From Aquibium sp. A9E412 (GTDB lineage: Bacteria > Pseudomonadota > Alphaproteobacteria > Rhizobiales > Rhizobiaceae): a stretch of DNA of 64,000 nt. The stretch covers positions 1-64,000 of the forward strand of contig NZ_JAOAOP010000002.1 of assembly GCF_030398335.1 (NCBI RefSeq), in the 5' to 3' direction. The number at the start of each line of letters is the position of its first letter. Position 1 is the first letter of the stretch. The position numbers and the translations under genes were made by a program. This document shows, piece by piece, positions 13,951-31,092 of this stretch. The notes below the pieces were generated by a model that saw only the letters and a program-made list of their open reading frames with translations, did not search any database and was not told the DNA's origin.

Positions 13951-14035
13951 CGGCTGGGTCCGACCGGCGTCAACTTATCTTCTTGACGCGTTTCCGGACG
14001 GCGAACCGGTTCCCACTTCGCCTGGAAACGCGTCA
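13951..14035 (+). repeat. RIME-like palindromic repeat, copy C
   Basis: This is the best-preserved palindromic half of the family. TGACGCGTTTCC (13984-13995) and GGAAACGCGTCA (14024-14035) are perfect 12-bp inverted arms around GGACGGCGAACCGG and CCACTTCGCCT. The first half of the element is degenerate here. It lies between convergent genes (enolase-family and DMFase-like beta subunit), where a hairpin could act as a two-way terminator. The stop of the leftward gene lies inside its right arm. Confidence 0.85.
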
Positions 14036-16267: not shown

Positions 16268-16584
16268 GCCGCGCCCTCCCCGGCCGCGCCGCGCGCGGCC
16301 AGCCGCAGCAGGAAGACGCGCCGCTCGGCCGCCGCCAGGTCGTCGAAGCGCTCGTCGAGCAGCACGACCGGCCGGCCGCGCCCGCCGAGCCTGGCAAGAC
16401 GCCAGCGCCGGCCCGGCACCTCCTCGACCAGCACGTGCTTGCCCTCGGCCGGCGCGCTGCGCAGCGTGTAGAGCAGGCGCTGCAGGTTGGGGCTGTGCTC
16501 GCCGAGCGGGTCGGCGAGGAACCCCTCGGCGAGCGCCCGCGTCGCCGGGTCGAGGCCCGACAGATCGTCCGCCATGGCCGCCAT
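16264..16584 (-). CDS. N,N-dimethylformamidase-like small (alpha) subunit
   Basis: This 106-residue basic protein is encoded immediately upstream of the large subunit, as in characterised DMFase operons, with GTGA overlap into it and a TGATG junction with the ThDP enzyme gene. It has DPLGEHSPNLQRLLYTLRS, where the sequence HSPNLQ and the following LR-rich helix resemble the DMFase alpha subunit, and ends with PVVLLDERFDDLAAAERRVF. It is shorter than the roughly 130-residue subunit of the known enzyme. Its role would be structural, capping the large subunit. The call leans on gene position as well as sequence. Confidence 0.75.
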   Translation of the reverse strand: MAAMADDLSGLDPATRALAEGFLADPLGEHSPNLQRLLYTLRSAPAEGKHVLVEEVPGRRWRLARLGGRGRPVVLLDERFDDLAAAERRVFLLRLAARGAAGEGAA

Positions 16585-18269
16585 CAGTGGTCGATGCGGG
16601 CGCGGTGCACGCGCTCGAAATGCTCGTGGTAGTGATGCGGCTCGATCTGCACGTCGAGCAGCGCCGGCACGCCGCTGCGGTTGGCCTCCAGCGCCTCGTT
16701 CAGCGCGCCGTCGATCTGCTCCGGCCGCTCCACCCGGAGGCCGAGGCAGGACTGCGCCCGGGCGATCTCGGAAAAGTCGCTGTTGACCTCGAAGCCGGTC
16801 GCCACGAACGGCTTCTGGCCGAGCAGCTGGTTGTACTGCACCCAGCCGAAGGCGTGGTTGTTGAGCACCACCCAGGTGACGCCGCATTTGAGCTCCGCCG
16901 CCGTCGCCAGCTCGGCCAGCGACATCTGCATGGCGCCGTCGCCGGTGAAGCAGACGATCTTCTTGTCGGGCCGCGCGATCTTGGCGCCGATGGCGCCGAT
17001 GACGCCCATGCTCATCGCCGTCTGCTCGCCCATCGGCACGCAGTCGTCGACGTCGAGCACGCGGTAGTGCGGCCAGTAGTAGCACCACAGGTCGGCACCG
17101 CCGTTCTCCTTCATCAGGATGGTGTCGCGGCCGAAGATGCGGTTGACCGCCGCCAGCACGCGCGGCACGCGGATCGGCGTCGCGTCGTCCTGCGCCCCGG
17201 CCTCGTATTTCGGCCGGTAGTCTTCCTTGAGCCGGGCGAGCTTGTCCAGCCGGCCGGCGCGCGCGGTCGCGTCGACCGGCGGCAGCGCGGCGGACAGGTC
17301 GTCGAGCGCCAGCGCCGCATCGCCGACCAGCGCGATGTCGGGCCGCATGTTCATGCCGATCGTCTCGGGGTCAATGTCGATCTGCACGAAGCGCGCGTCC
17401 TTCGGCCAGAACTGCCAGGAGTTGGTCGAGAAGGCCTCGAGCCGCGAGCCGACCGAGACGACCAGATCGGCCTCGTCGAACCAGCGCTTGCCGGCCTCGG
17501 TGAAGTAGAGCCCGGTCTGGCCCATCGCATAGGGGCCGTCCTCGGGATAGATGCCGCGCCCGCCGGGCGTCGTCATCACCGCCATGCCGACGGCGTCGGC
17601 GAGCCGCGCGACCGCCGGCCCGGCGCCGGAGAACACCGCGCCCGAGCCGCACCACAGGAGCGGCTGGCGCGCCGCCGCCAGCGCCTCGGCCGCCGCGGCG
17701 ACCGATTGCGCGGCCGGCCGCGCCAGGTGGCGGCGATAGCCGGCGCGATAGGCCGGCATCTCGACCGTCTCGTCGGCCAGGTCGGACGGGATCTCGATGA
17801 ACACGCCGCCCGGCCGGCCGTTCATGGCGATGGCGAAGGCGCGCTCCATCACCCACGGGATGCGGCGCGGATCGGTGACGCGCGTCGCCCATTTGGTGAC
17901 CGGCCGCATCAGCGACACCGCGTCGAGCTCCTGGAAGGCGCCCATGCCCTCCTGGCCCTGCACGACGCCGTTGACGATGGCGATCACCGGCAGTGAGCCG
18001 GAGGTCGCCTCCAGCATGCCCGTCACGAGGGTGGTGATGCCGGGGCCGGGGTTGGAGAAGACGATGCCCGGCCGGCGCTTGAGCCGGGCATAGGCATAGG
18101 CGCAGGAGACGGCCGACTTCTCGTCGCGCACCAGGACGAACTCGACGGGCGTGTGCTCGGTGAGGTCGTAGACCAGGTGCTTCGGGTTGCCCGGCAGGCC
18201 GAACACGTGGTCCACCCCCTCGGCCGCCAGCGCTTCGGCGACCGCCCGCCAGATCGTCTTCTGCTGCAT
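16584..18269 (-). CDS. Thiamine-diphosphate enzyme, acetolactate-synthase-like
   Basis: This 561-residue protein has the three-domain layout of ThDP-dependent POX/ALS enzymes. The catalytic glutamate is E50 in VRDEKSAV. A GLPGNPKHLVYDL start and SNPGPGITTLVTGM follow. The cofactor motif runs from GDGAMQMS (about 443) to VVLNNHAFGW. Such enzymes decarboxylate or ligate 2-keto acids; this one is too isolated from ilvH/ilvC to be the biosynthetic acetolactate synthase. It sits between the importer ATPase gene and the DMFase-like genes in one leftward operon, so it probably processes a 2-keto acid or acyl fragment from the same substrate. Glyoxylate carboligase, oxalyl-CoA decarboxylase and sulfoacetaldehyde acetyltransferase relatives are alternatives. 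Confidence 0.88.
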   Translation of the reverse strand: MQQKTIWRAVAEALAAEGVDHVFGLPGNPKHLVYDLTEHTPVEFVLVRDEKSAVSCAYAYARLKRRPGIVFSNPGPGITTLVTGMLEATSGSLPVIAIVNGVVQGQEGMGAFQELDAVSLMRPVTKWATRVTDPRRIPWVMERAFAIAMNGRPGGVFIEIPSDLADETVEMPAYRAGYRRHLARPAAQSVAAAAEALAAARQPLLWCGSGAVFSGAGPAVARLADAVGMAVMTTPGGRGIYPEDGPYAMGQTGLYFTEAGKRWFDEADLVVSVGSRLEAFSTNSWQFWPKDARFVQIDIDPETIGMNMRPDIALVGDAALALDDLSAALPPVDATARAGRLDKLARLKEDYRPKYEAGAQDDATPIRVPRVLAAVNRIFGRDTILMKENGGADLWCYYWPHYRVLDVDDCVPMGEQTAMSMGVIGAIGAKIARPDKKIVCFTGDGAMQMSLAELATAAELKCGVTWVVLNNHAFGWVQYNQLLGQKPFVATGFEVNSDFSEIARAQSCLGLRVERPEQIDGALNEALEANRSGVPALLDVQIEPHHYHEHFERVHRARIDH

Positions 18270-18280
18270 GTCGTTTTCCC

Positions 18281-19924
18281 TTACTTGGCGCGTGAGCCCG
18301 TGTGCGCGGAGAGCATGCCGCGCCCGGGGATGGAATCGATGAGGAGCTGCGTGTAGTCGTGGCGCGGCTCGAACAGCACCTGCTCGGAGGTGCCCATCTC
18401 GACGATGCGGCCGCGCTGCATCACCGCCACGCAGTCGCACACCTGGGCCGCCACCCGCAGGTCGTGGGTGATGAACAGCAGCCCGATGCCGAGCCGGTGC
18501 TGGATGTCGGAGAACAGCTTGAGCACGCGCGCCTGGATCGACACGTCGAGGGCGGAGACCGGCTCGTCGGCGACGATCAGGTCGGGCTCGAGCGCCAGCG
18601 CGCGGGCGATGCCGATGCGCTGGCGCTGGCCGCCGGAAAAGGCGTTCGGATAGCGGTCGGCGACGGCGGGATCGAGCGCCACCAGGTCGAGCAGCTCCTC
18701 GACGCGGCGGCGCGCCTCGCGGCGGCCGGTGCCGTGGGCGAGCAGTCCCTGGGCGACGATCTCGAACACCGTGCGGCGCGGGTTGAGCGAGGCGAAGGGA
18801 TCTTGGAACACCATCTGCACGCGGCGGCGCAGCGGCGCCAGCTCGCGATGGCCGAGCTCGAGAAGGTTGCGCTCGACGCCGGCCAGCCGCACCTCGCCGC
18901 TGTCGGCCGTCAGGAGGCGCACGATGATGCGCGCCAGCGTCGACTTGCCGGAGCCCGATTCGCCGACGATGCCGAGCGTCTCGCCGCGCGCCAGGCTGAG
19001 CGTCGCGTCGGTGACGGCCGGCACCTCGCGGCGCGGGCCGAAGAAGCCGGAGCGCGAGGCGTAGACCTTGGTCACCCGGTCGGCCGAAAGCAGCGTCTCG
19101 GCGCCGGCCGGCTTGGTCGACGGGTTGGGCTCGAGCCGCGGCACGGCGGCCAGCAGCGTGCGGGTGTAGTCGTGCTGCGGGTTGCCGAGCACCTCGGAGA
19201 CCAGACCGCGCTCGACGATCCGCCCGTGCTGCATGACGGCGACCTCGTCGCCGATCTCGGCGACGACGCCGAAGTCGTGCGTGATCAGCACGATCGCCAT
19301 GTCGCGCTCGGCCTGCGCCGTCTTGAGCAGCGCCAGGATCTGCTTCTGCGTGGTGACGTCGAGCGCCGTCGTCGGCTCGTCGGCGATCAGCAGGTCGGGG
19401 TCGAGCGCCAGCGCCATGGCGATCATCACGCGCTGGCGCTGGCCGCCCGACAGGCGGAACGGATAGGCGTGGCGCAGCAGCTCGGGCTCCGGCAGGCCCA
19501 TCTGCTCGAGCAGCGCGACGATGCGCGCGTCGTGCGGCCCCGGCACGCCGTGGAAGCGGAACACCTCCTCGATCTGCTTGCCCACCTTCATCACCGGGTT
19601 GAGCGCGGCCATCGGCTCCTGGAACACCATGCCGATGCGGCTGCCGCGGATGCGCCGGTGGCGGGCGGCCGGCATGCCGACGAGATTCTCGCCGCCGTAG
19701 CGGATCATGCCGTCGACCTTGAGCGGCCGCGGCACCAGCCCCATGATCGCATGCGCGGTCATCGACTTGCCGGAGCCCGATTCGCCGACGACGCACAGCA
19801 CCCGGCCGCGATGCACCGACAGGTCGATGGCGTCGACGGCGCGCGCCCGGTCGCCGCCGAACGGCAGGCCGATGGTCAGCCCCTCGATCGAGACCAGCGG
19901 TTGGGTCGTGGTGATCGCGTTCAT
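18281..19924 (-). CDS. Fused dual ATPase of a peptide-type ABC importer
   Basis: This is a 547-residue protein carrying two complete ATPase modules in tandem, DppD-like then DppF-like. Module 1 has [24 protein letters not shown] and [12 protein letters not shown]. Module 2 has [24 protein letters not shown] and [10 protein letters not shown]. No intervening stop exists, so one polypeptide energises the DppB/DppC permeases encoded upstream. This differs from the first importer, which uses two separate ATPase genes. Each module lacks the long oligo_HPY cysteine tail seen in the separate proteins. ATG 19924 overlaps the DppC-like stop by 4 bases. Confidence 0.94.
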
Positions 19925-20760
19925 CGCTCGAGCCCGATGCGTCCCTTGAGGTGCGGGTTGAGCGCGTCGTTGAGCCCCTCGCCGACCAGGTTGATGGCCA
20001 GCACCGTCAGCACGATGGCAAGGCCGGGAAAGACCGACAGCCACCAGGCCTGGCGAAAGACGGTGCGCGCGGCGCCGATCATGTAGCCCCAGGAGATGCG
20101 GTTGGGGTCGCCGAGGCCGAGGAAGCTCAGCGCCGATTCGGTGAGGATCGCGGTGGCGATCATCAGCGAGCCCATCACGATGAGCGGCGACACCGCGTTG
20201 GGCAGCACCTCGGCCAGCATGATGCGGCCGCGCGACACGCCCGACAGCACCGCCGCCTCGACGAACTCGCGGCTGCGCAGGCTCATGAACTCCGAGCGCG
20301 CCAGGCGGGCGATCGGCGGCCAGGTGACGACGGCGATGGCGACGACGATCGAGGTCAGCCCGGGGGTCAGGATGGCGACGAGCAGGATGGCGAAGATGAA
20401 GCTCGGGATCGTCTGGAAGAACTCCACCACGCGCACCAGGACGTCGTCGACCCAGCCGCCGAAGAAGCCGGCGAGCGCGCCGATGCTGACGCCGATCACC
20501 ACCGCGACGACGGTCGACAGGACGCCGATCCACAGCGAGATGCGGGCGCCGTGGATGATGCCGGCGAGCACGTCGCGGCCGAGCATGTCGGTGCCGAGCA
20601 CGAAGTCGGAGCCCGGCGGCAGCAGCGGCCGGCCCTGCGTCGCCCACGGGTCGGTTGGCGACAGCACCGGCGCGGCCAGCGCGACGAAGACGATCGCCGC
20701 CAGGATGACGAGGCCGAGAAGCGCACCGCGGTTCTCGGCGAAACGCTTGAGGAACGACAT
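19921..20760 (-). CDS. Peptide-type ABC transporter permease (DppC-like)
   Basis: This is a 279-residue DppC/OppC-type membrane permease. It has an N-terminal TM helix, the subfamily motif LGTDMLGRDVLAGIIHGAR (about residues 55-73), then five more spans. The EAA loop is at SREFVEAAVLSGVSRGRIM. ALSFLGLGDPNRISWGYMI is the usual late motif. It starts at ATG 20760, which overlaps by one base with the stop of the DppB-like gene, and feeds into the fused ATPase gene with a 4-base overlap. It is part of the second importer operon. Confidence 0.94.
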   Translation of the reverse strand: MSFLKRFAENRGALLGLVILAAIVFVALAAPVLSPTDPWATQGRPLLPPGSDFVLGTDMLGRDVLAGIIHGARISLWIGVLSTVVAVVIGVSIGALAGFFGGWVDDVLVRVVEFFQTIPSFIFAILLVAILTPGLTSIVVAIAVVTWPPIARLARSEFMSLRSREFVEAAVLSGVSRGRIMLAEVLPNAVSPLIVMGSLMIATAILTESALSFLGLGDPNRISWGYMIGAARTVFRQAWWLSVFPGLAIVLTVLAINLVGEGLNDALNPHLKGRIGLER

Positions 20761-21737
20761 CAGGCGCGGCTCCCGATGCGCGGATCGGCGACCCGCAGCA
20801 ATATGTCCGTGACCATGTTGAAGAAGACGACCATCAGCGCCGACAAGAGGAAGACGCCGAGCAGGAGATTGTAGTCGCGCTGGAACAGCGCGTCGAAGGC
20901 GAGCCGGCCGATGCCCGGCCAGGCGAACACCGTTTCCACCACGATGGCGCCGCCGACCAGGTGACCGGCCTGCAGGCCGGCGAAGGTGATGATCGGCAGC
21001 AGCGCGGTGCGCAGGATGTGCGCGGTGGCCACGCGCCACTCCGGCAGGCCCTTGGCCCGCGCCGTCTTGACGTAGTCGAGCGTGGCGGTCTCCAGCATGG
21101 AGGCGCGCGTCAGGCGGACATAGACGGCGACGTAGAACAGGCCGAGCGTGACGGCCGGCAGGATCAGGTGGCGCAGGATGTCGAGCGTGCGCGCCAGCGT
21201 GCCTTCCACCGGGATCAGGCTCTGCATGCCGAACGGCGGCAGCCAGCCGAGCTGCACGGAGAACACCAGGATCAGGAGCAGGCCGACCCAGAAGATCGGC
21301 GTGGCGTAGAAGAACAGCGCCACGACCATCAGCGCGCTGTCGTAGACGGTGCGCGCCTTCATGGCGGCGATCGCACCGAGCAGCGGGCCGAAGACCAGCG
21401 CGAAGAGATAGGCCGAGCCGGTCAGCAGCAGCGTCGCCGGCAGCCGCTCGAACAGCATGTCCACGACGGCACGCTGGTTGCGGTAGCTCTGGCCGAGATC
21501 GAGCGTCAGCACGTTCTTGAGATAGATCCCGAGCTGGACGAGGAGCGGACGGTCGAGGCCGAAGTCGCTGCGGATCTGCGCCAGGAAGCGCTCGTCCGCA
21601 GCGCCGGCCTCGCCGGCCATCACGATGGCGGGGTCACCGGGCGCCAGCCGGATCAGCAGGAAGTTGAGGATGGTGATGGCGAGCACCACCACCAGCGCCT
21701 TGACGAGCCATCCCACCAGGAATCCGAGCTGGCGCAT
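20760..21737 (-). CDS. Peptide-type ABC transporter permease (DppB-like)
   Basis: This is a 325-residue DppB/OppB-type permease with six predicted spans. The N terminus carries ILNFLLIRLAPGDPAIVMAG (about residues 23-42), typical of the family. The EAA loop is TLDYVKTARAKGLPEWRV. VETVFAWPGIGRLAFDALFQRD is the conserved late stretch. It lies 8 bases behind the SBP gene and overlaps the DppC-like gene by one base. It serves the second importer, whose downstream genes encode the ThDP enzyme and DMFase-like hydrolase. Confidence 0.94.
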   Translation of the reverse strand: MRQLGFLVGWLVKALVVVLAITILNFLLIRLAPGDPAIVMAGEAGAADERFLAQIRSDFGLDRPLLVQLGIYLKNVLTLDLGQSYRNQRAVVDMLFERLPATLLLTGSAYLFALVFGPLLGAIAAMKARTVYDSALMVVALFFYATPIFWVGLLLILVFSVQLGWLPPFGMQSLIPVEGTLARTLDILRHLILPAVTLGLFYVAVYVRLTRASMLETATLDYVKTARAKGLPEWRVATAHILRTALLPIITFAGLQAGHLVGGAIVVETVFAWPGIGRLAFDALFQRDYNLLLGVFLLSALMVVFFNMVTDILLRVADPRIGSRA

Positions 21738-21745
21738 CGGTCGGC

Positions 21746-23338
21746 CTACTGCTCGAAGTAGGCTTCGGCGAAGTTGTCGTTCGGGCCGAGGCCGTTGCGA
21801 ACGACGTTCTTCAGCTTGGCGTCATGCACGGTCGGCCACTGCAGCTCGGCGAGCCAGGCGAGCGCCACCTCGTCGGCGATGATCTTCTGCACCTCGTGGT
21901 ACATCTCGAGCCGCTTCTCGTGGTTGGGCTCGGACGCCGCCTCGGCGAACAGCCGGTCGACCTCCGGATTGGAATAGCCCGCAGTGTTGGTGAACAGCAC
22001 GCCCTTCTTCTGGTTGTCGGTGATGTAGCTGCGCGCCACGCCGAGCGCCGGATCCGACAGCGTCGTCAGATAGGTGGTCGACATGTCGACGTCCCAGTTG
22101 GCGATGCGGCTGCCCCAGCCGGCGACGTCGGAGGCTTCCAGCGTCACCTCGACGCCGACCTCGCCGAGCGCCTGCTTGATGTACTGCGACAGGCGGTCCC
22201 ACAGCTCGCCATAGGGCAGGCCGAGCAGGCCGATCTCCGCGCGCACGCCATCGCCGTCGGGCGTCAGGCCCATCTCGTCGAGCAGCGCGCGGGCCTTGTC
22301 CGGGTCGTGCTCGTAGGTCACCACGTCGTCGGTGTAGAACGGCGACGAGGAATGGATCGGCCCGGTCGGCACCTTGGCGTAGCCGAAGAAGATGTTGTCG
22401 CGGATGAACGCGTGGTCGAGCGCGTACATCACCGCCTTGCGGAAGCGCACGTCGCCGAAGGGCTCGCGACGGTGGTTCATCTCGAGCCACGAGATCGGCG
22501 CGCCCCACTCCCAGCCCTTGGTGGTGACCTCGAGATGCGGCATCGCCTCGAGACGGCCGAGATCGACCAGCTCGATGTCGTTCTGGGTGGCGAGCTGCAC
22601 CTGGCCGGTCTCCAGCGCCAGCGCGCGCGAGGCGCTGTCGGGAATGAAGCGGTAGTAGATCTCGTCGAGATAGGGCCGGCCGTCGAGATAGTAGTCGTCG
22701 TTGCGCACGAGATGGATGTACTCGCCGCTCTTCCACTCGGAGAACTTGAACGGACCGGTGCCGATCGGCGACCGGTTGACCGGGTTCTCGCGGATGTCGG
22801 AGCCGGCATAAACGTGCTCCGGCACGATCGGCGCGCCGATGGCGTCGAACGAGCGGATCAGCGGCCCGTACGGCTCCTCCAGGGTGAGCACGACGGTGTG
22901 GTCGTCCGGCGCCTCGACCTTGGCGCGGGCGAAGGTCGGCCGCGAGCGCGCATGCACCTCGGGGATGAACTCGGTCAGCGTGTAGACCACGTCCTGCGAG
23001 GTGAAGGGCTCGCCGTCGTGCCATGTCACGTCGTCGCGCAGGTTGAAGGTGTAGGTCAGGCCGTCCTCGCTGACCTCCCAGCTCTCGGCCAGCATCGGCT
23101 GCGGGTTGAGCTGGAAGTCGTAGGTGAGCAGCCCCTCGAAGATCTTGGTGCTGGGCAGGAGTGTCGGCGCGTTGAGATTGATGCCGATGACGATGCCCGG
23201 CGGCTCCGGCCACAGGGTCGAGTTCAGCGTGCCGCCACGCTGCGGCTCGGCCTGCGCCGCCGCGCCGGACACGGCGAGCGCGACGGCGGCGGCCGCCAGG
23301 CCCGTGGCCCATCTGTTGATTGTTCGTTGTGGTCGCAT
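21746..23338 (-). CDS. ABC transporter substrate-binding protein, family 5
   Basis: This is a 530-residue periplasmic SBP_bac_5 protein. The N terminus is a Sec signal (basic start, hydrophobic core, AAAQAEP cleavage site around residue 31). The mature protein begins QRGGTLNSTLWPEPPG and continues with PMLAESWEVSEDGLTYTFNL, WHDGEPFTSQDVVYTL and IGTGPFKFSEWKSGEY. ATG 23338 is chosen because the 66 extra residues upstream would cover the regulatory region. It is the first gene of the second importer operon and diverges from the MocR gene; a GAGCC direct repeat lies 61 bases upstream of its start. Confidence 0.94.
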   Translation of the reverse strand: MRPQRTINRWATGLAAAAVALAVSGAAAQAEPQRGGTLNSTLWPEPPGIVIGINLNAPTLLPSTKIFEGLLTYDFQLNPQPMLAESWEVSEDGLTYTFNLRDDVTWHDGEPFTSQDVVYTLTEFIPEVHARSRPTFARAKVEAPDDHTVVLTLEEPYGPLIRSFDAIGAPIVPEHVYAGSDIRENPVNRSPIGTGPFKFSEWKSGEYIHLVRNDDYYLDGRPYLDEIYYRFIPDSASRALALETGQVQLATQNDIELVDLGRLEAMPHLEVTTKGWEWGAPISWLEMNHRREPFGDVRFRKAVMYALDHAFIRDNIFFGYAKVPTGPIHSSSPFYTDDVVTYEHDPDKARALLDEMGLTPDGDGVRAEIGLLGLPYGELWDRLSQYIKQALGEVGVEVTLEASDVAGWGSRIANWDVDMSTTYLTTLSDPALGVARSYITDNQKKGVLFTNTAGYSNPEVDRLFAEAASEPNHEKRLEMYHEVQKIIADEVALAWLAELQWPTVHDAKLKNVVRNGLGPNDNFAEAYFEQ

Positions 23339-23398
23339 TGTGTTCTCCCTCACATGCACTCCAGCGACGACTATTCCCGATGAAGTGTTCTTGAGGAA

Positions 23399-23432
23399 GA
23401 GCCAATTCCGGCTAATCTGACGGAGCCACTTG
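23399..23432 (+). promoter_or_regulatory. GAGCC direct repeat, copy 1 (candidate MocR operator)
   Basis: Two direct repeats GAGCCAATT (23399-23407) and GAGCCACTT (23423-23431) are spaced 24 bp start to start, in the gap between the SBP gene and the divergent MocR gene. The same arrangement, identical at 25 of 33 positions with a 13-bp perfect block GACGGAGCCACTT, recurs at 30021-30054. MocR proteins are known to bind spaced direct repeats next to their own gene. Binding here is inference. Confidence 0.6.
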
Positions 23433-23453
23433 GACAATCGGGGAGACGGCGGC

Positions 23454-24959
23454 GTGGCCAGGCGCGGCAAGGACAGGACCACGGAACTCTTCGCCGGCAT
23501 GGACGGCGCGCAGGGCACGCAGTCGCTGCAGCGCACCGTCTACGAGCGCATCGCGGCGGCGATCCTCGACGGCCATCTGCGGCCGGGCGACCGGCTGCCG
23601 TCGACGCGCGAGCTGGCCAAGTCGCTCGGCATCGGCCGCAACACCGTCACCTGGGCGGTCGAGCAGCTCGCCGTCGAGGGCTTCGTGGAGACGCGGCACG
23701 GCTCCGGCACCTTCGTGTCGATGCAGCTGCCCGACGCGCCGCGGCCGAACGGCGACGACGCGGCCGGCCGCGCGGCGGCCGTGGCGCGCATCGCGCGGCG
23801 GGCCGAACGCTACGCGGCGGTGGCGCGCTCGCTGCGCGTGCCGCAGCGGCCGGTGCCCTTCCGCATCAACATGCCGGCGGTCGACGACTTTCCCGTGTCG
23901 CTGTGGCGGCGGCTGATGAAATCGCTGATGAGCGACAGCGCGATCGGCGCGGCCGCGCTGCTCGGCGAGACCGAGCCGGCCGGCTACGGCCCGCTGCGCG
24001 AGGCGATCGCGCGCTATCTGATGATCAACCGCGGCGTGGTGTGCGCGGCCGACCAGGTGGTCATCGTGGCCGGCGCCCAGCAGGGCCTCGACCTGGCCAT
24101 GCGGCTGCTGCTCGACCCCGGCGACAAGGTGTGGTGCGAGGATCCCGGCTTTCCCGGCTCGGTGGCGGCGCTGCGCGCGGCCGGCGCGGCGATCGGCGCG
24201 GTGCCGGTCGACGCGGAGGGCTTCGACCTGGCCGCCGCGCAGCGGCTGCATCCCGACGCGCGGCTCGCCGTCGTGTGCCCCTCCTCGCAGTTTCCGCTCG
24301 GCAGCACGCTGTCGCTGCCGCGCCGGCTGGCGCTGATCGACTGGGCGCGGCAGAGCAACGGCTGGATCGTGGAGGACGACTACGACAGCGAGTTCCGCTA
24401 CCGCGGCCGGCCGGTGCGCTCGCTGCAGGGGCTCGATGGCGGCGAGCGGGTGGTCTATGTCGGCACCTTCTCCAAGATGCTGTTTCCCGGCCTGCGGCTC
24501 GCCTACGTCGTGGTGCCGCGGCCCTTCGTCGAGCTGTTCGTCAACGCGCGCATCGTCGCCGGGCGCCAGTCGCCGACCTTCGAGCAGGTGATCGTCGAGC
24601 GCTTCATCTCCGAGGGGCATCTCGGCCGCCACATCGCGCGCATGCGCCGGCTCTACGCGGCGCGCCGGGCCGCACTGATCGAGGCGGCGCGCCGGCGCCT
24701 GCCCGGCCTGCTCGAGCTGCGGCCGGCCGACACCGGCCTGCAGCTTCTCGCCTGGCTGCCCGAGGGCTGGAGCGACCAGGCGGTCAGCCAGGCGGCGGCC
24801 GGCCACGGGCTTGAGATCACGCCGCTGTCGCGGCTTGCCGTCGAGCGCGCCATGCCGCCGGCGCTGCTGCTCGGCTTCGGCAACTTCACGCCGGCGGCGA
24901 TCGAGGACGGGCTGGAGCGGCTCGCCGCGGCGCTGGAGGAGGCGCGGCCCGAGCGATAG
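23454..24959 (+). CDS. MocR-family (GntR/aminotransferase) transcriptional regulator
   Basis: This is a 501-residue MocR/PdxR-type regulator: an N-terminal GntR winged helix (about 25-90; LRPGDRLPSTRELAKSLGI and RHGSGTFVS) joined to a fold-type I aminotransferase domain (about 130-501). The PLP lysine is K341 in YVGTFSKMLFPG, with D308/Y310 in EDDYDSEFRYRGRP. I place the start at GTG 23454, with GGGGAG 8 bases upstream; a TTG at 23430 is the alternative but would overlap the putative operator. It is divergent from the second importer operon and convergent with the 25068-29823 operon. It is the natural candidate to sense an amino-compound and control both. Confidence 0.93.
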   Translation: MARRGKDRTTELFAGMDGAQGTQSLQRTVYERIAAAILDGHLRPGDRLPSTRELAKSLGIGRNTVTWAVEQLAVEGFVETRHGSGTFVSMQLPDAPRPNGDDAAGRAAAVARIARRAERYAAVARSLRVPQRPVPFRINMPAVDDFPVSLWRRLMKSLMSDSAIGAAALLGETEPAGYGPLREAIARYLMINRGVVCAADQVVIVAGAQQGLDLAMRLLLDPGDKVWCEDPGFPGSVAALRAAGAAIGAVPVDAEGFDLAAAQRLHPDARLAVVCPSSQFPLGSTLSLPRRLALIDWARQSNGWIVEDDYDSEFRYRGRPVRSLQGLDGGERVVYVGTFSKMLFPGLRLAYVVVPRPFVELFVNARIVAGRQSPTFEQVIVERFISEGHLGRHIARMRRLYAARRAALIEAARRRLPGLLELRPADTGLQLLAWLPEGWSDQAVSQAAAGHGLEITPLSRLAVERAMPPALLLGFGNFTPAAIEDGLERLAAALEEARPER

Positions 24960-25061
24960 AGCCATTCTGCGTTTCGCGGACGCAAAGATCGGCTCCAAGT
25001 CCTTGTCGTCACGCGTTTTCGACCGGCGAACCGGTTTCCACGTCGCCCGGAAACGCGCCAG
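24957..25061 (+). repeat. RIME-like palindromic repeat, copy D
   Basis: This is a full-length copy that begins exactly at the MocR stop codon (TAG then AGCC). The first half runs TAGAGCCATTCTGCGTTTCG to AGATCGGCTCC; the second runs CACGCGTTTTCG, CCGGCGAACCGG, then CGCCCGGAAACGCG. It separates convergent genes (MocR and the DMT transporter), so it may serve as their shared terminator. Confidence 0.85.
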
Positions 25062-25067
25062 GCCGGC

Positions 25068-26006
25068 TCAGCCGGCCGCCCGCACGCGGCCGGCCAGGGC
25101 GCGGCGCAGATGCGGCAGCGCCACGCCGCACAGGATGATGCCGACGAAGATCAGGTCGCTGCCGTCGAGCCTGACGCCGAGCAGCAGCGCCGCCGTCGAC
25201 AGGCCGAAGACCGGCGCCAGCGCCCCGAGCAGCCCGACCCAGGCGACGGCGACGCGCGACAGCGCGTAGTTGTAGCCGAGGAAGTTCATCACCGTCATGA
25301 ACAGCACCAGATAGGCCATCGCCGCCAGCTCGCCGGGGCGGGCGAGATCGGGCGGCGACCAGCCGGTGGCGGCGACGAAGACGGCCGCGGCGATGCCGGC
25401 GCCGGTGAGCTGCAGCGTCGCCACGTGGTACCAGACCGAGCGGCCGCGGTTGAAGACGCGGGCGATGACCGAATTGAGCGAGGCGAAGAACACCGCGGCC
25501 AGAACCAGCAGATTGCCGGCCATGACGCTGGTGCCGTCGGCCGAGCGCGACAGCGTCATCAGCGCCAGCCCGGCGAAGCCGACCAGGCCGCCGGCGGGAA
25601 AGGTCCAGTGCAGCCGCTCGCCGAGCAGGACGCGCGCCATCAGCGGTCCGGCGATCGGAAACAGGCCCCAGATCAGCGCCACGCTGGCGCCGTCGGTGAG
25701 CCGGGCGCCGGAGATCGCCAGCGCGAACACGAGGCCCGGCGCCAGCACGCCCCAGGCCAGGTGCAGCGCCGAGCGCCGGTCGGCCGGCGGCAGCCGGCCG
25801 GCGGCGAAGAGCGCCGCCCACATCAGCGCCGCCGCCGCGCCGAGCTGGACGAGCATGATCGAGCCGACATTGGAGCCGGCGACCAGCACCTTCTGGACGA
25901 TCAGCCCCGACTGCCAGAAGAACACCGAGGCGAACACGGCGGCGAGCCCGCCGAGCGGCGCGCTCAGCGCAGCATGGACCGGCGCCGTGTCGCCGCCGCG
26001 GGCCAT
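25068..26006 (-). CDS. EamA/DMT-family transporter
   Basis: This is a 312-residue inner-membrane protein with about ten hydrophobic helices in two EamA repeats (roughly 15-150 and 160-300). Family features are the tandem-repeat layout and helix ends such as GLIWGLFPIAGPLMA-like and VLFMTVMNFLGYNYALSRV, with LGALAPVFGLSTAALLLGV in the second repeat. DMT proteins export amino acids, purines or other small metabolites. It is the last gene of the leftward five-gene operon, starting 7 bases after the Gfo/Idh gene stop. It could export an intermediate or take up a sugar derivative; direction cannot be read from sequence. Confidence 0.9.
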   Translation of the reverse strand: MARGGDTAPVHAALSAPLGGLAAVFASVFFWQSGLIVQKVLVAGSNVGSIMLVQLGAAAALMWAALFAAGRLPPADRRSALHLAWGVLAPGLVFALAISGARLTDGASVALIWGLFPIAGPLMARVLLGERLHWTFPAGGLVGFAGLALMTLSRSADGTSVMAGNLLVLAAVFFASLNSVIARVFNRGRSVWYHVATLQLTGAGIAAAVFVAATGWSPPDLARPGELAAMAYLVLFMTVMNFLGYNYALSRVAVAWVGLLGALAPVFGLSTAALLLGVRLDGSDLIFVGIILCGVALPHLRRALAGRVRAAG

Positions 26007-26013
26007 GCGCGGT

Positions 26014-27039
26014 TCAGTCTGCGGCGAGCGCGACGGGCCGCCCGGTGCGGAAGGCCTCCTCGGCCGCCAGGCAGACCTCGACGGCGACCCGCGCCTCCTC
26101 CGGCGGCAGGATCGAGCGGCCCTCGCGGAAGCCGGCGAGCGCCTGGCGGATGTTCTCCTTGAGCTCGAACACCTCGCCCGACAGCGGAATGTCGACCGCC
26201 TCCGGCTCGGCCTCGCCGCGCTGCACCTTGAGGGCGAACTCGGGATGCAGCGTGCGGTCCATCGCCCCCGACCACCAGGTGCGCGCCGCGCCGTGCGTGC
26301 CGGCCACCTCGAGCAGCGTGTGATGCTCGAAGCCCGACAGGCACTGGCTGAGCACGGCGAGCGAGCCGTCGGCCCATTCCAGCGTCGTGGCGAAGTTGCG
26401 CACCAGGCCGCCCTCGCCGCCGCTGCCATGGGCGTGCACGCGCGCCGGCTTGCCGTTCTCGCGCGCATACCACATGACGAGATCGAAGAAGTGGACGAGT
26501 TCCTCCAGGATCCACGAGCCGACCCGGGCGGGATCGTAGCGCCAGCCGCCGGAGCCCTGGCGGAACTTGTGGCGGAACAGCGACAGGTGCTGGTACTCGA
26601 CGCGGCCGAGATCGCCGGCGGCGACGATGTCGCGCACCGCACCCCACTGGCGCGAGACGCGCAGCTCGTGGTTGAGCGCCACCTTGCGGCCGCTCCGCGC
26701 GGCGGCGGCGATCACCCGGTCGCACTCGGCGAGCGTCAGCCCGAGCGGCTTTTCCAGGAAGACGTCGGCGCCCGCCTCGAGCGCCGCGGCGGCGTAGTCG
26801 GCGTGCACGTGGTTCGGCGAGGCGACGACCACCACGTCGAAGCCGCCGGCGCCGAGCATGGCGCGGTAGTCGTCGAAGCGGGCGACGCCGGGAAGCTGCT
26901 CGGCCGCCGCACGGGCGGAATTCTCGCCGTGGCAGTAGAGCGCGACGATCTCGGCACCGTCGATGTCGGCCACCGCGCGCGCATGCATCTGGCCCCAGGC
27001 GCCGAAACCGGCGAGCGCGATGCGGGTGGGATTGCTCAT
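26014..27039 (-). CDS. Gfo/Idh/MocA-family oxidoreductase
   Basis: This is a 341-residue NAD(P)-dependent oxidoreductase. The Rossmann motif is ALAGFGAWGQMHARA (residues about 7-21). The family's catalytic-lysine motif is FLEKPLGLTL (about 93-102), and the C-terminal alpha/beta domain begins at NHELRVSRQWG. Members oxidise or reduce sugars, inositols and related polyols. It overlaps the amidohydrolase gene by 4 bases on its upstream side. In an operon with an aldose-epimerase-like protein, SDR and amidohydrolase it probably handles a sugar-like intermediate. Confidence 0.9.
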   Translation of the reverse strand: MSNPTRIALAGFGAWGQMHARAVADIDGAEIVALYCHGENSARAAAEQLPGVARFDDYRAMLGAGGFDVVVVASPNHVHADYAAAALEAGADVFLEKPLGLTLAECDRVIAAAARSGRKVALNHELRVSRQWGAVRDIVAAGDLGRVEYQHLSLFRHKFRQGSGGWRYDPARVGSWILEELVHFFDLVMWYARENGKPARVHAHGSGGEGGLVRNFATTLEWADGSLAVLSQCLSGFEHHTLLEVAGTHGAARTWWSGAMDRTLHPEFALKVQRGEAEPEAVDIPLSGEVFELKENIRQALAGFREGRSILPPEEARVAVEVCLAAEEAFRTGRPVALAAD

Positions 27040-28265
27040 GGTGCCTCCATTGCGTTGTCTCGATCGGATCGGCCGCCGGCCGGGCGGTCATGGCCGGCCT
27101 CGAAGGGCCTTGCGGCCGGCGCCACGAAGGTGCCGGCGCGGTAGAGCCCGGCCGGCCGCAGCAGCCAGCGGCCGCGCCGCTCGCCGCCCGTCACGTCGCG
27201 GAAGGGAAAATCGGCCGGCACCGGCGCGATCAGCGTGACGTCGGCCACCGCCCCCTCCCCCAGATGGCCGAGGTCGGGCCGGCGCAGCGCGCGGGCCGGG
27301 GCGTCGGTCGCCATCGCGAGCACGTCGGCGATCGGCACGCCGCAGGCGACGAGCTTGCTCATCGTGTGGGCGAGATCGTAGGCCGGCCCGTCGACGCACA
27401 GGCTGTGCACGTCGCTCGACACGATGTCGGGCGCGAAGCCCTCGGCCACCGCCTGCTCGGCGCTGTCGAAGCCGAAGGCGCCCATGCCGTGGCCGATGTC
27501 GAACAGCACGCCGCGCTCGCGCGCCCGGCGCAGCGCCGGCAGCACGCGGCCGGCCTCGTCGACCGGCGCGTTCGGCGCCGGCCGGAAGCAGTGGGTCAGC
27601 ACGTCGCCCTGCCGCAACCGGTCGACCACCGCCGCATAGGAGGGCGGCGGCCGGCCGATGTGGCTCATCAGCGGCAGGCCCGCGCGCTCGGCGGCGTCGA
27701 GCGCGCAGTCGAGCGCGGCAAGGCCGAGCTCGCCGGAGGTGCCGGCGCCCATGCGCACCTTGATGCCGACGATCGTGTCGCGGTTGGCCTCGGCGACGGC
27801 CACGCAGTGCGCGACGGACAGCAGCGCCCGGTCGGCCGCCTCGCCCACCATCATGCCGCGGTCGAAGGCGAAGATGCCGGGATAGGAGATGTTGAGATAG
27901 GCGAGCACGCGGGTGGCGGCCGGGCGGATGACGAAGTCGCGCAGGCCGGCATAGGTGCCGGCGCCGGCGCTGCCGGCATCGACCAGCGTGGTGACGCCCG
28001 AGCGCGCGGCGAGCGGATCGGGCGCGACGCCGAGCGCGGTGGCGGAATGGTAGACATGGGTGTGCAGGTCGATCAGGCCCGGCACCACCATGAGGCCCTC
28101 GGCGTCGTGCACGCGCGCCGCCTCGGCCGGGTCGATGCGCGGCGCGACCGCCGCCACGCGGCCGCCGGCCAGCGCCAGGTCGAAGCGGCCGTCGCGGCCG
28201 GCGCGCGGGTCGACCAGCCGGCCGCCGGCGATCAGCAGGTCGTAGCGCGGCCGCCGCGTCACCAT
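27036..28265 (-). CDS. Amidohydrolase/deacetylase-family metallohydrolase
   Basis: This is a 409-residue TIM-barrel amidohydrolase of the dihydroorotase-like subgroup. Metal-site residues fit: H68 and H70 (DLHTHVYH), the probable carboxylated lysine K169 (GIKVRMG), H202 (SHIGRPP), H225 (LTHCF) and D285 (SSDVHSL). The GIKVRM motif is typical of the deacetylase/amidohydrolase group related to D-aminoacylases and imidazolonepropionase-like proteins. It overlaps the SDR gene by 7 bases and the Gfo/Idh gene by 4. It gives the catabolic region a second amide-cleaving enzyme besides the DMFase-like pair. Natural substrate unknown. Confidence 0.88.
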   Translation of the reverse strand: MVTRRPRYDLLIAGGRLVDPRAGRDGRFDLALAGGRVAAVAPRIDPAEAARVHDAEGLMVVPGLIDLHTHVYHSATALGVAPDPLAARSGVTTLVDAGSAGAGTYAGLRDFVIRPAATRVLAYLNISYPGIFAFDRGMMVGEAADRALLSVAHCVAVAEANRDTIVGIKVRMGAGTSGELGLAALDCALDAAERAGLPLMSHIGRPPPSYAAVVDRLRQGDVLTHCFRPAPNAPVDEAGRVLPALRRARERGVLFDIGHGMGAFGFDSAEQAVAEGFAPDIVSSDVHSLCVDGPAYDLAHTMSKLVACGVPIADVLAMATDAPARALRRPDLGHLGEGAVADVTLIAPVPADFPFRDVTGGERRGRWLLRPAGLYRAGTFVAPAARPFEAGHDRPAGGRSDRDNAMEAP

Positions 28266-28930
28266 GGCAGCGGCGTGCCGTCATAGGACAGGAGCTGGCC
28301 GGTCTCGTGGTTGCCGAGCCGGGCGATCACGCCGCGCATCGAGGCGACGCTGTCGGCGACCGCCAGCGCGCCGCCACCGCCGCCGCCGGCCGTGTCGACC
28401 CAGCCGGGATGGATCAGCACCACGGTGATGCCGCGCGCGAAGAGGTCGACCGCCAGGCTGCGCATCAGCGCGTTGAGGCCGGCCTTGCTGGCGCGGTAGC
28501 CGTAGTGGCCGCCCGACAGGTTGAGGCCGATCGAGCCCATGCGGCTGGTGACCGCGGCGATGCGCCGCTCGCCGCTCGCCGCCACGTTGTCGGCCAGCGT
28601 CTCGACCAGCCGCAGCGGCCCCATCGTGTTGACCTCGAGCATCTGCCGCACATAGCCGAAGTCGAGCGCGCCGAGGCGGCCGGTGTCGAGACCGATGCCG
28701 GCATTGGACACGAGCAGGTCGATCGGCTCCGCACCCAGCGCCCGCTTGAGCGCGACGAACGCCTCCGGCCGCGTGACGTCGAGCGGCAGGTTGCGGATGC
28801 CCTCGACGCCGGCGATGGCATTGGCGATGTCGCGGTGGGTGGCGACGACCGACCAGCCGGCCCGCGCATACTGCAGCGCGAACTCGCGGCCGATGCCGGT
28901 GTCGCAGCCGGTGATCAGCGTCGTCGGCAT
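28259..28930 (-). CDS. Short-chain dehydrogenase/reductase
   Basis: This is a 223-residue classical SDR. The cofactor motif is TLITGCDTGIGREFA (residues 4-18), the NAG motif is LLVSNAGIG and the active site shows S-x-n-YxxxK as SRMGS and YGYRASK. The end GQLLSYDGTPLPW is unlike fatty-acid-type SDRs. It shares a TGATG junction with the aldose-epimerase-like gene upstream and overlaps the amidohydrolase gene by 7 bases. It probably oxidises or reduces a hydroxyl group of the same substrate. NAD versus NADP preference cannot be fixed; HRDIANA after beta-2 has no clear acidic NAD-selector. Confidence 0.88.
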   Translation of the reverse strand: MPTTLITGCDTGIGREFALQYARAGWSVVATHRDIANAIAGVEGIRNLPLDVTRPEAFVALKRALGAEPIDLLVSNAGIGLDTGRLGALDFGYVRQMLEVNTMGPLRLVETLADNVAASGERRIAAVTSRMGSIGLNLSGGHYGYRASKAGLNALMRSLAVDLFARGITVVLIHPGWVDTAGGGGGGALAVADSVASMRGVIARLGNHETGQLLSYDGTPLPW

Positions 28931-29823
28931 CAGGCGCCCGCCCCGGCGGCGTCGGCCGGCCGGTAGGCAAGCCGCACGGCATGCCGCGCCGCCGCCCCCG
29001 GCGCCAGCCAGCGCATCGACGGCTTGTCGGCCAGCGTGCCGGCGAAGCCCGCCGGGTCGGAATGGCCGGTCCAGGCCTCCATGCACAGGAAGGGCGCGCC
29101 CGGCCGGCTCCACAGCGCCAGATGCGGGAAGTTCTCGACCGCCATCGCGATCGCCGCGCCGTCGGGCGCGACAAAGCGCAGGCTGCGGCTCGCCGCGTCG
29201 AGGAAGCACAGCGCCTCGCCGTCTAGCAGGCGGTCGGCGAGCGGCAGGACGCGGCCGGCGAGCGGCACGGGCCGGCGGCCGGCGCCGATCAGCCCGTCGG
29301 CCGTGATCTGCGGCACCGCGGCGCGCTCGGGCCGGGCGAAGACGACGCGGTGGCCGGCCCGCGCGCCGGCGGAAAACGGCCAGCGGAAGCCGGGGTGGAA
29401 GCCGAGCGCATAGGGCATGGCGCGGCGGCCGGTGTTGGCGACCTCGAAGGCGATCGTGAAGCGGCGCGGCGTCAGCCGGTAGCGGATGTCGAGGCGGAAG
29501 GCGAAGGGATAGAGCGCCCGGGTGGCGGGGCTGTCGACGAGCCGCAGATGCAGCCGGTCGGCGCGGCACCCGACCACCGCGAACTCGGCGTCGCGGGCGA
29601 AGCCGTGCACGCCGGGGCGGTAGCTCCGGCCGTCGGCGACGAGCCGGCCGCCGGCGAGATGGCCGACGATCGGAAACAGCACCGGGCTCGAGCGCGACCA
29701 GTGGGCGGCGTCGCCCGGCCACAGCAGATCGGCTCCGCCCGTCCGCCAGGCGACCGGCTCGCCGCCGCCGGGCGCAACGCACGCCTCGGCATCGGCCGAG
29801 ACGAGCCGCACGGGCGCGCTCAC
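28930..29823 (-). CDS. Aldose 1-epimerase (mutarotase)-like protein
   Basis: This is a 297-residue member of the galactose-mutarotase-like fold. Visible family parts are SPVLFPIVGHLAGG, RPGVHGFARDAEF (a His-Gly-Phe typical of this group), GFHPGFRWPF with its catalytic-type His, and PHLALWSRPGAPFLCMEAW. It would interconvert anomers of a sugar or recognise a hexose phosphate. A GTG start at 29823 is chosen; upstream in-frame sequence is arginine-rich and non-conserved in look. It is the first gene of the five-gene leftward operon, so the promoter should lie in 29824-30243, shared with the divergent IclR gene. Confidence 0.85.
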   Translation of the reverse strand: MSAPVRLVSADAEACVAPGGGEPVAWRTGGADLLWPGDAAHWSRSSPVLFPIVGHLAGGRLVADGRSYRPGVHGFARDAEFAVVGCRADRLHLRLVDSPATRALYPFAFRLDIRYRLTPRRFTIAFEVANTGRRAMPYALGFHPGFRWPFSAGARAGHRVVFARPERAAVPQITADGLIGAGRRPVPLAGRVLPLADRLLDGEALCFLDAASRSLRFVAPDGAAIAMAVENFPHLALWSRPGAPFLCMEAWTGHSDPAGFAGTLADKPSMRWLAPGAAARHAVRLAYRPADAAGAGA

Positions 29824-30020
29824 CGGGCCGCCCCGCGGGGCGGCGGCCGGCGTCCTGCGAAACGACCGGCGACGGACCTCAGGGAGGAGGCGGTCCGGGC
29901 CGGCTGAGCGGGCGCGTGTTGCGGCGGCATGGGCGATCGCGTGGTCTCCTTGCGGACGGGCGTGCGCCGGCACGGCACCGCCGGCCGACAAGCGTTAGCC
30001 GACGCGGCGGCCGGCGAACA

Positions 30021-30054
30021 GAGCCGGTTTCGGGCAAAAGGACGGAGCCACTTT
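30021..30054 (+). promoter_or_regulatory. GAGCC direct repeat, copy 2, in the 29824-30243 intergenic region
   Basis: The 420-base gap between the aldose-epimerase operon and the IclR gene holds no gene I can support. Inside it are GAGCCGGTT (30021-30029) and GAGCCACTT (30045-30053), again 24 bp apart, matching copy 1 at 23399-23432 including the block GACGGAGCCACTT. This suggests that one regulator, probably MocR, acts at both promoters. No -10/-35 pair could be assigned with confidence. Confidence 0.55.
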
Positions 30055-30243: not shown

Positions 30244-31092
30244 ATGAACGAGAACGCCCCCCTGCCCGCCGCGCAAGGCGCGGCCGAGACGGACGGCCGC
30301 TCGCGGCTTTCGGTGCAGGTCGTGCACCGCTCGCTGCGCGTGCTGGAAACGCTGTCGGCGGCGATCGGGCCGCTGTCGCTCAGCGCGGTCAGCCAGGCCG
30401 TCGGCCTGCACCGCAGCACCACGCTGCGCATCCTGCGCACGCTGGCCGACGACGGCTACACGGTGTTCGATCCCGACAAGCGCACCTGGGTGATCGGCCC
30501 GGCGATCCTGCGCCTGCAGGCCGGCGCGCGGGCGCATGGCGACCTGCGCCACGTGGCGCTGCCGATCATGCAGGCGCTGTGCGAGCGCGTCGGCGAGACG
30601 GTGCAGCTCGCCACCATGCTCAACCACCAGGTGTGCTACCTGGAGAAGGTCGAGCCGCCGGAGCAGCAGGTCAAGGTGCTGACCGAGATCGGCAGCCGCC
30701 GGCCGCTCTACTGCACCGCGCTCGGCAAGGCACTGATGAGCGGGCTGGAGCCGGCCGAGCTCGAGCCGCTGGTTGCGGCGATGGAGCTGGTGCCGCACAC
30801 CGAGCGCACGGTGACCGACCGCCGCGCGCTGCTCGACCAGGTGGCCGAGGCACGGCGCCGCGGCTACGCGCTCGACCTGCGCGAATACAACCGCGCCGTG
30901 CAGTGCTCGGCCGCGCCGGTGCGCGACGCGACCGGCAGCGTGGTCGGCGCGCTCAGCATCTCGACCATCGGGCTGGAGGCCGATTCGGCGGCCTTCCGTG
31001 CGATCATCGACCGCAACGTGGAGGCCGCGCAGGCGCTGTCGCGCGCGCTCGGCTGGCAGCCGCCGGCCGCCGGGGCCGCCGACGGGGCGTGA
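30244..31092 (+). CDS. IclR-family transcriptional regulator
   Basis: This is a 282-residue regulator: an N-terminal winged helix (about 20-85; SLRVLETLSAAIGPLSLSAV and GLHRSTTLRILRTLADDGY) and a C-terminal ligand-binding IclR domain (about 95-270; ALCERVGETVQLATM, PLYCTALGKALMSGL and ALSISTIGLEADS). IclR proteins often control adjacent catabolic operons in response to a pathway acid. The ATG at 30244 gives the standard length; a longer frame to 29929 runs through the regulatory region. It diverges from the five-gene operon starting at 29823, which it may regulate, and may also act on the palindrome at 12706-12756. Confidence 0.93.
   Translation: MNENAPLPAAQGAAETDGRSRLSVQVVHRSLRVLETLSAAIGPLSLSAVSQAVGLHRSTTLRILRTLADDGYTVFDPDKRTWVIGPAILRLQAGARAHGDLRHVALPIMQALCERVGETVQLATMLNHQVCYLEKVEPPEQQVKVLTEIGSRRPLYCTALGKALMSGLEPAELEPLVAAMELVPHTERTVTDRRALLDQVAEARRRGYALDLREYNRAVQCSAAPVRDATGSVVGALSISTIGLEADSAAFRAIIDRNVEAAQALSRALGWQPPAAGAADGA

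Follow-up and report, generated by a model that had tools for sequence, protein, structure and literature searches.

The first 64,000 nucleotides of contig NZ_JAOAOP010000002.1 of Aquibium sp. A9E412, an α-proteobacterium of the family Rhizobiaceae, were analyzed as a whole and are referred to here as the window. Two leftward operons in it each face a divergent regulatory gene, and in both of the intergenic regions formed in this way there is a pair of GAGCC boxes; this raises the question of whether the two pairs are operators of the same regulator, and of which one. The first pair (site 1) separates a leftward importer operon, which also includes the gene for a large protein resembling N,N-dimethylformamidase (DMFase), from a rightward gene that starts at 23454 and encodes a regulator of the MocR subfamily. 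The second pair (site 2) lies between a five-gene operon, called here operon 2, and the gene of an IclR-family regulator. We consider it probable that both sites are tandem operators of the MocR protein encoded at 23454, which would control the two operons, probably activating them, and repress its own gene.

The paired element in the Aquibium genome

GAGCC is read directly at 23399 and 23423 in site 1 and at 30021 and 30045 in site 2, the members of each pair being 24 bp apart, and the 33-mers of the two sites, compared by eye, are identical at 25 of 33 positions, with the common block GACGGAGCCACTT. A first-pass annotation of this DNA had described the pairs in these terms and had placed them between genes at the two divergent promoters; both descriptions are confirmed. 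With the gene starts that we chose to bound the intergenic regions, site 1 (23399-23431) falls between the start of the gene for a substrate-binding protein (23338) and the GTG codon of the MocR gene (23454), and site 2 (30021-30053) between the GTG codon of a mutarotase gene (29823) and the ATG codon of the IclR-family gene (30244). Were the alternative TTG codon at 23430 the start of the MocR gene, 2 bases of that codon would lie within the outer box of site 1.

The element is rare. The pattern GAGCCRNTT-N14-GGAGCCACTT, searched with up to 3 mismatches, matches the window at two places only, without a mismatch at either, where shuffled sequences give an expectation of 0.05; in the 4.28-Mb assembly it is found with fewer than 3 mismatches at sites 1 and 2 only. 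A third genome match, with 3 mismatches, lies at C66:260902-260934 of the same genome (G000) and may, judged from its letters, belong to the end of a tRNA gene; one of the related genomes considered below (G209) has an almost identical match. The 13-mer GACGGAGCCACTT occurs in exactly two copies in the 4,282,189-base assembly, namely sites 1 and 2, which places it outside dispersed repeats, and a dispersed-repeat origin of the element was dropped for this reason, the RIME-like repeats themselves being unmapped.

The element in related genomes

Seven close orthologues of MocR were compared, that of Aquibium itself and those of six relatives designated G175, G091, G209, G154, G572 and L039. Two boxes 24 bp apart are present upstream of the MocR gene in all seven; four of them (Aquibium, G209, G572 and L039) have an unaltered GAGCC in each box, and one of the site-1 boxes has one or two changes in G154, G175 and G091. 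Synteny, with the importer/DMFase-like operon divergent from the MocR gene, is conserved in six of the seven, and the first gene of this operon is seen on the short L039 contig. By eye, a −10-like AATAGT or GATAGT is seen at site 1 in four of the seven. Five homologues of 48-50% identity, which stand in another gene context, lack a box pair of this kind in the 300 bp inspected. When a weight matrix was built from the site-1 sequences of the six relatives, with nothing from the Aquibium genome, it scored 39.3 at site 1, 26.6 at site 2 and 10.5 at the third-best place in the window, and the maximum over 7.7 million random positions was 14.2.

In G175, G091, G154, G209 and G572, genes of operon 2 are found on the contig of the MocR gene, either adjoining it or no more than about 25 kb away; the L039 genome gave one weak amidohydrolase match only (E value 5e-6). 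The intergenic region of operon 2 in Aquibium has a sole significant local alignment with G175 (covering 29996-30043 of the window) and with G091 (29996-30045 of the window), with scores of 51 and 50, respectively, against shuffle maxima of 33 and 36 (0 of 1000 shuffles in each case). The part aligned in both genomes comprises the inner box and the adjacent 23 bp, which are kept across genera. These counterparts are not listed by a matrix made from site 1 alone at a threshold of 6; they were found by eye and then by alignment. In G572 (L209 283-8086) the mutarotase match starts where the DMFase-like match ends, and genes for a lactonase-like protein, a short-chain dehydrogenase/reductase (SDR), an amidohydrolase, an HpcH/HpaI-aldolase-like protein and an oxidoreductase come next on this strand, separated by short gaps, so that the importer operon and operon 2 are apparently fused in one long operon behind site 1 alone. 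Of the six genomes with operon-2 genes, three have site 2 (Aquibium, G175 and G091), one apparently does not need it (G572) and two are without it (G154 and G209).

The spacing was also followed in the best 80 of at least 580 MocR homologues (about 40-65% identity, up to 350 bp upstream). Pairs of GNNCCA/TGGNNC occur in them 18 times at 24 bp and 10 times at 23 bp, versus 1.2 and 1.5 in mononucleotide shuffles. After reduction to 34 representatives of less than 60% mutual identity (35 less L039), the 24-bp spacing was found in 6 of 34 (mean 0.60 and maximum 4 in 200 dinucleotide shuffles; 0 in the coding control) and the 23-bp spacing also in 6 of 34 (mean 0.50, maximum 3; 3 in the coding control); most of the representatives have no such pair within these upstream regions. 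Because it is enriched over the shuffles and has a coding control of 0, the 24-bp spacing belongs to the wider group of MocR homologues; that of 23 bp is less clean. GGTCCA is the second box in several of the more distant homologues. Just upstream of position 8001 of L040, beside a Terriglobia homologue of 51% identity, ACCACTT and GCCATTT were seen by eye 24 bp apart, with an inverted AAAGTGGCTC; the operator type may thus reach far beyond the class.

Predicted mode of action and its alternatives

The first-pass annotation had proposed that the MocR at 23454 controls both operons and defines a regulon. The rarity of the motif, its conservation upstream of the orthologous genes, the matrix scores and the counterparts of site 2 in G175 and G091 lend support to this proposal, that is, to one MocR with two operators and one small regulon. 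Given that the same paired tag is present at both clusters and beside the MocR gene in relatives, one regulator, of a well-known kind, is very probably in charge of both, which would be the two halves of one pathway of uptake and breakdown.

In the mechanism that we propose, sites 1 and 2 would be head-to-tail operators, with one winged-helix domain of a MocR dimer bound at each box (AAGTGGCTC = GAGCCACTT). A 24-bp period would bring both boxes to the same face of the DNA at a distance of about two helical turns, and direct boxes spaced in this way agree with the head-to-tail dimer that has been proposed for MocR proteins (PMC5320631). At site 1 the bound protein would cover part of its own promoter and act on the importer/DMFase-like operon; autorepression is suggested by the position of the inner box in the spacer of the candidate promoter TTGAGG-16-TAATCT and of the outer box directly downstream of its −10. 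The target at site 2 would be the mutarotase-SDR-amidohydrolase-oxidoreductase-EamA operon. Activation would take place when the aminotransferase-like domain, with pyridoxal phosphate (PLP), binds an amino compound of the pathway, and it is the most likely mode because the operator has the same orientation toward both operons and its inner GGCTC lies 23 bp from a −10-like position in each case. We infer from the sequence that this compound is the effector, and likewise the binding and the sign of control. The conserved block at 23383-23393, AAGTGNNCTTG, in the opposite sense to both boxes, may be an inverted box, as in the commonest type of MocR motif, which consists of two direct boxes and one inverted box. 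The positions of these features are collected in Table 1.

Table 1. Coordinates of the two sites, the putative promoters and the genes of the region
Feature	Position	Strand	Remarks
Site 1, inner box (importer-operon side)	23399..23407	+	GAGCCAATT; AATTGGCTC in the direction of the operon
Site 1, outer box	23423..23431	+	GAGCCACTT, 24 bp further; GAGCC in 5/7 orthologues, GGGCC / GGACC... variants in G175 and G091
Third conserved block	23383..23393	-	AAGTGTTCTTG; AAGTGNNCTTG in 6/7 orthologues, absent from L039
Candidate MocR promoter, TTGAGG-16-TAATCT	23391..23418	+	By eye; overlaps the boxes
Putative −10-like AATAGT, importer operon	23370..23375	-	By eye; 23 bp from the inner GGCTC
Site 2, inner box (operon-2 side)	30021..30029	+	GAGCCGGTT; identical in G175 and G091 across ACAGAGCCGGTTT
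Site 2, outer box	30045..30053	+	GAGCCACTT, 24 bp further; degenerate in G175 and G091 (GGTCCAAT)
Putative −10-like position, operon 2	29992..29997	-	By eye; TAACGC here (weak), TATCTG / TATGTG in G175 / G091; 23 bp from the inner GGCTC
MocR: GntR winged helix and aminotransferase-like domain	23454..24959	+	
Family-5 substrate-binding protein	21746..23338	-	First gene of the importer operon
OppB, OppC, OppDF ATPase	18281..21737	-	OppB 20760-21737; OppC from 19921 and OppDF from 18281 (starts approximate)
Acetolactate-synthase-like thiamine-pyrophosphate enzyme, small open reading frame (ORF), DMFase/N-acyl-beta-phenylalanine-acylase-like large protein	14033..18270	-	Enzyme from 16584; small ORF in the 16264-16560 region; large protein 14033-16267
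Operon 2: aldose-epimerase-like mutarotase, SDR, amidohydrolase, GFO/IDH/MocA oxidoreductase, EamA permease	25068..29823	-	28930-29823; 28259-28930; 27036-28265; 26014-27039; from 25068
IclR-family regulator	30244..31092	+	Divergent from operon 2

Several observations qualify this reading or weigh against it. The bare pair GAGCC-N19-GAGCC is common, with 81 genome matches, the reversed control pattern having even more (299), and was dropped as a signal on these numbers; the window has 5 matches versus 0.81 expected, those besides sites 1 and 2 being at 18561 (within the OppDF gene), 10988 and 11971. The repeat finder that lists the site-1 pair (9 nt, 24-bp spacing) omits that of site 2, whose boxes match at only 7 of 9 positions, and the third block of site 1 is absent from site 2 in the alignment. 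The counterparts of site 2 in G175 and G091 have a degenerate outer box (GGTCCAAT in place of GAGCCACT), and with the matrix from the relatives they score only 4.3 and 2.8, below the 6.4 reached by 1 random position in 100,000. The alignment of the regions upstream of operon 2, a comparison put forward in the first-pass annotation, stood for G175 and G091 and failed for G154 and G209, which have operon-2 genes and show no site 2 either in four intergenic regions, none with a significant alignment, or in 20-kb stretches. The promoter positions are best regarded as putative, because the hexamers are weak and strict consensus scans found no promoter at either place; a terminator scan found none. 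Finally, simple autorepression is at odds with the rhizopine system, where mocR is reported as constitutive (PMC10107442).

The alternative that survives best is that MocR binds both sites and represses both operons until the effector releases it. Some MocR relatives, such as EnuR, are repressors. The same evidence for binding applies to this mode, whose sign is not distinguishable from the sequence, and EnuR is called a repressor in the abstract of PMC8739950. We regard it as unlikely: the boxes lie, by eye, upstream of the operon-side −10-like positions and not over them, and the rhizopine MocR, the closest in operator, has inducible mocB and mocD promoters (PMC10107442). That site 2 is instead the operator of the divergent IclR or of another regulator, its likeness to site 1 being accidental, is suggested by the IclR gene that adjoins it and by imperfect inverted repeats nearby. 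This is very improbable, given that site 2 scores 26.6 with a matrix made from MocR-side sites only, that the regulator neighbouring its counterparts in G175 and G091 is of the LysR type, with no IclR match at an E value of 1e-6 in 20-kb stretches, and that site 2 is absent where an IclR relative does stand near operon 2 (G154 and G209); an IclR operator was dropped as the leading explanation on these grounds. An equally improbable chance match, or a copied scrap of functionless DNA, would account for a site-2 outer box closer to site 1 of the same genome, with which it shares the 13-mer, than to its counterparts in G175 and G091, but not for the expectation of 0.05 matches per window, the lack of a third copy of the 13-mer in the genome or the conservation across genera of the inner box with the adjacent 23 bp.

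The regulator, its pathway and known systems

The 509-residue ORF of the regulator has the Pfam domains GntR (34-96) and Aminotran_1_2 (183-455), and is a member of the MocR subfamily. The lysine of its TFSK motif (K341 counted from the 23454 start), which we take to be the PLP-binding lysine, is invariant in the seven orthologues. The best NCBIfam model is that of the rhizopine MocR (NF052281), but with 469.2 bits the protein falls short of its cut-off of 650; the score for PdxR (NF052282), 417.9 bits, exceeds its cut-off of 320. The PdxR label is probably misleading, as automatic PdxR naming is likely to be, because no vitamin B6 synthesis or salvage gene was seen among the scanned genes of both operons, beyond which only a motif search was made.

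Close orthologues are rare and patchy in the sampled genomes, the samples overlapping in part. Besides that of Aquibium, four were found at 70-75% identity in 394 genomes drawn from the family, and 397 drawn from the order added one of 73% (G572, of another family), the other four matches passing an E value of 1e-125 having 48-50% identity; in 385 genomes drawn from the class the sole match had 50%. An orthologue is present in 2 of 4 genomes of the genus of G175 and in 1 of 4 of that of G154. Among the best 80 of the at least 580 relatives on contigs, one reaches 65% (L039, a metagenome-assembled genome) and the next 51%. Near 2842-2893 of L039 there is an in-frame stop within the last part of the tblastn match of the orthologue. 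In a plasmid collection 1,467 records match, all below 60% identity, and the two regions inspected (R. sullae and Ensifer canadensis) differ in gene context.

With regard to the target genes, the best solved relatives of the DMFase-like protein are N-acetyl-(R)-beta-phenylalanine acylase and the large subunit of N,N-dimethylformamidase, and the small ORF beside it is without a Pfam match. In or beside operon 2 of the relatives there are genes for an SMP-30 lactonase-like protein (G572 and G154), an HpcH/HpaI aldolase-like protein (G572 and G209), a D-serine-dehydratase-like protein (G091 and G209), and RidA-like and mandelate-racemase-like proteins (G209). From these gene families our guess is that the pathway breaks down an amino compound that is acylated or amide-linked and has a part resembling a sugar acid. 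Tentatively, and with somewhat less than even confidence, the regulon may represent a catabolic pathway, so far undescribed, that acts on an amide- or N-acyl-linked amino compound, with Opp-type import, cleavage by the DMFase-like (N-acyl-beta-amino-acid-acylase-like) enzyme and a MocR of new effector specificity; the gene set would be split in some genera and the operator doubled there, so that both halves stay under one regulator. No paper naming both dimethylformamidase and MocR was found in a literature search, and the matches listed by a wider search held nothing relevant. If correct, the assignment provides this MocR with an operator and with two operons as its targets, and joins these neighbours in a single pathway, thereby restricting the range of candidate substrates. 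The relatives, with one apparently fused operon behind one site and split operons with two, would illustrate on a small scale how an operator is retained or acquired as a set of genes is divided.

Several known systems can be compared. For MocR regulons at large, the survey by Suvorova and Rodionov (PMC5320631) gives two or three direct boxes in 27% and two direct boxes with one inverted in 32%, the direct boxes being two or three helical turns apart with a TGT or TGG core; repeated boxes upstream of the regulator's own gene are likewise seen here in all seven orthologues. Mixed direct and inverted boxes are described there for PdxR, which differs in that no gene of vitamin B6 synthesis was found among the scanned genes of our two operons. 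TauR of Rhodobacter capsulatus, according to the same survey, is an activator that binds direct repeats (consensus CTGGACYTAA); its TGG core is similar, but its targets are others, and no taurine gene was recognized among the genes scanned here.

The closest published counterpart of the element is the moc-box of the rhizopine MocR (PMC10107442), two direct AAAGYGGYTCT boxes with a 13-bp spacer and thus a 24-bp period; binding by MocR is proposed, not demonstrated, in the passages describing the box, and the system also has a divergent mocR and one regulator for the two inducible promoters. The box and its period are shared and the moc-box spacing is exact at both sites; site 2 fits the pair with 2 mismatches, and site 1, with 4 of 22 by eye, went unlisted in the moc-box search because the limit was 3. 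The moc system differs in the contents of its operons and in that our protein scores below the NF052281 cut-off. The operator would work like a moc-box pair. The mechanism is in this sense a familiar one, a known kind of MocR tandem operator, and the operator and targets of the predicted regulon are newly assigned.

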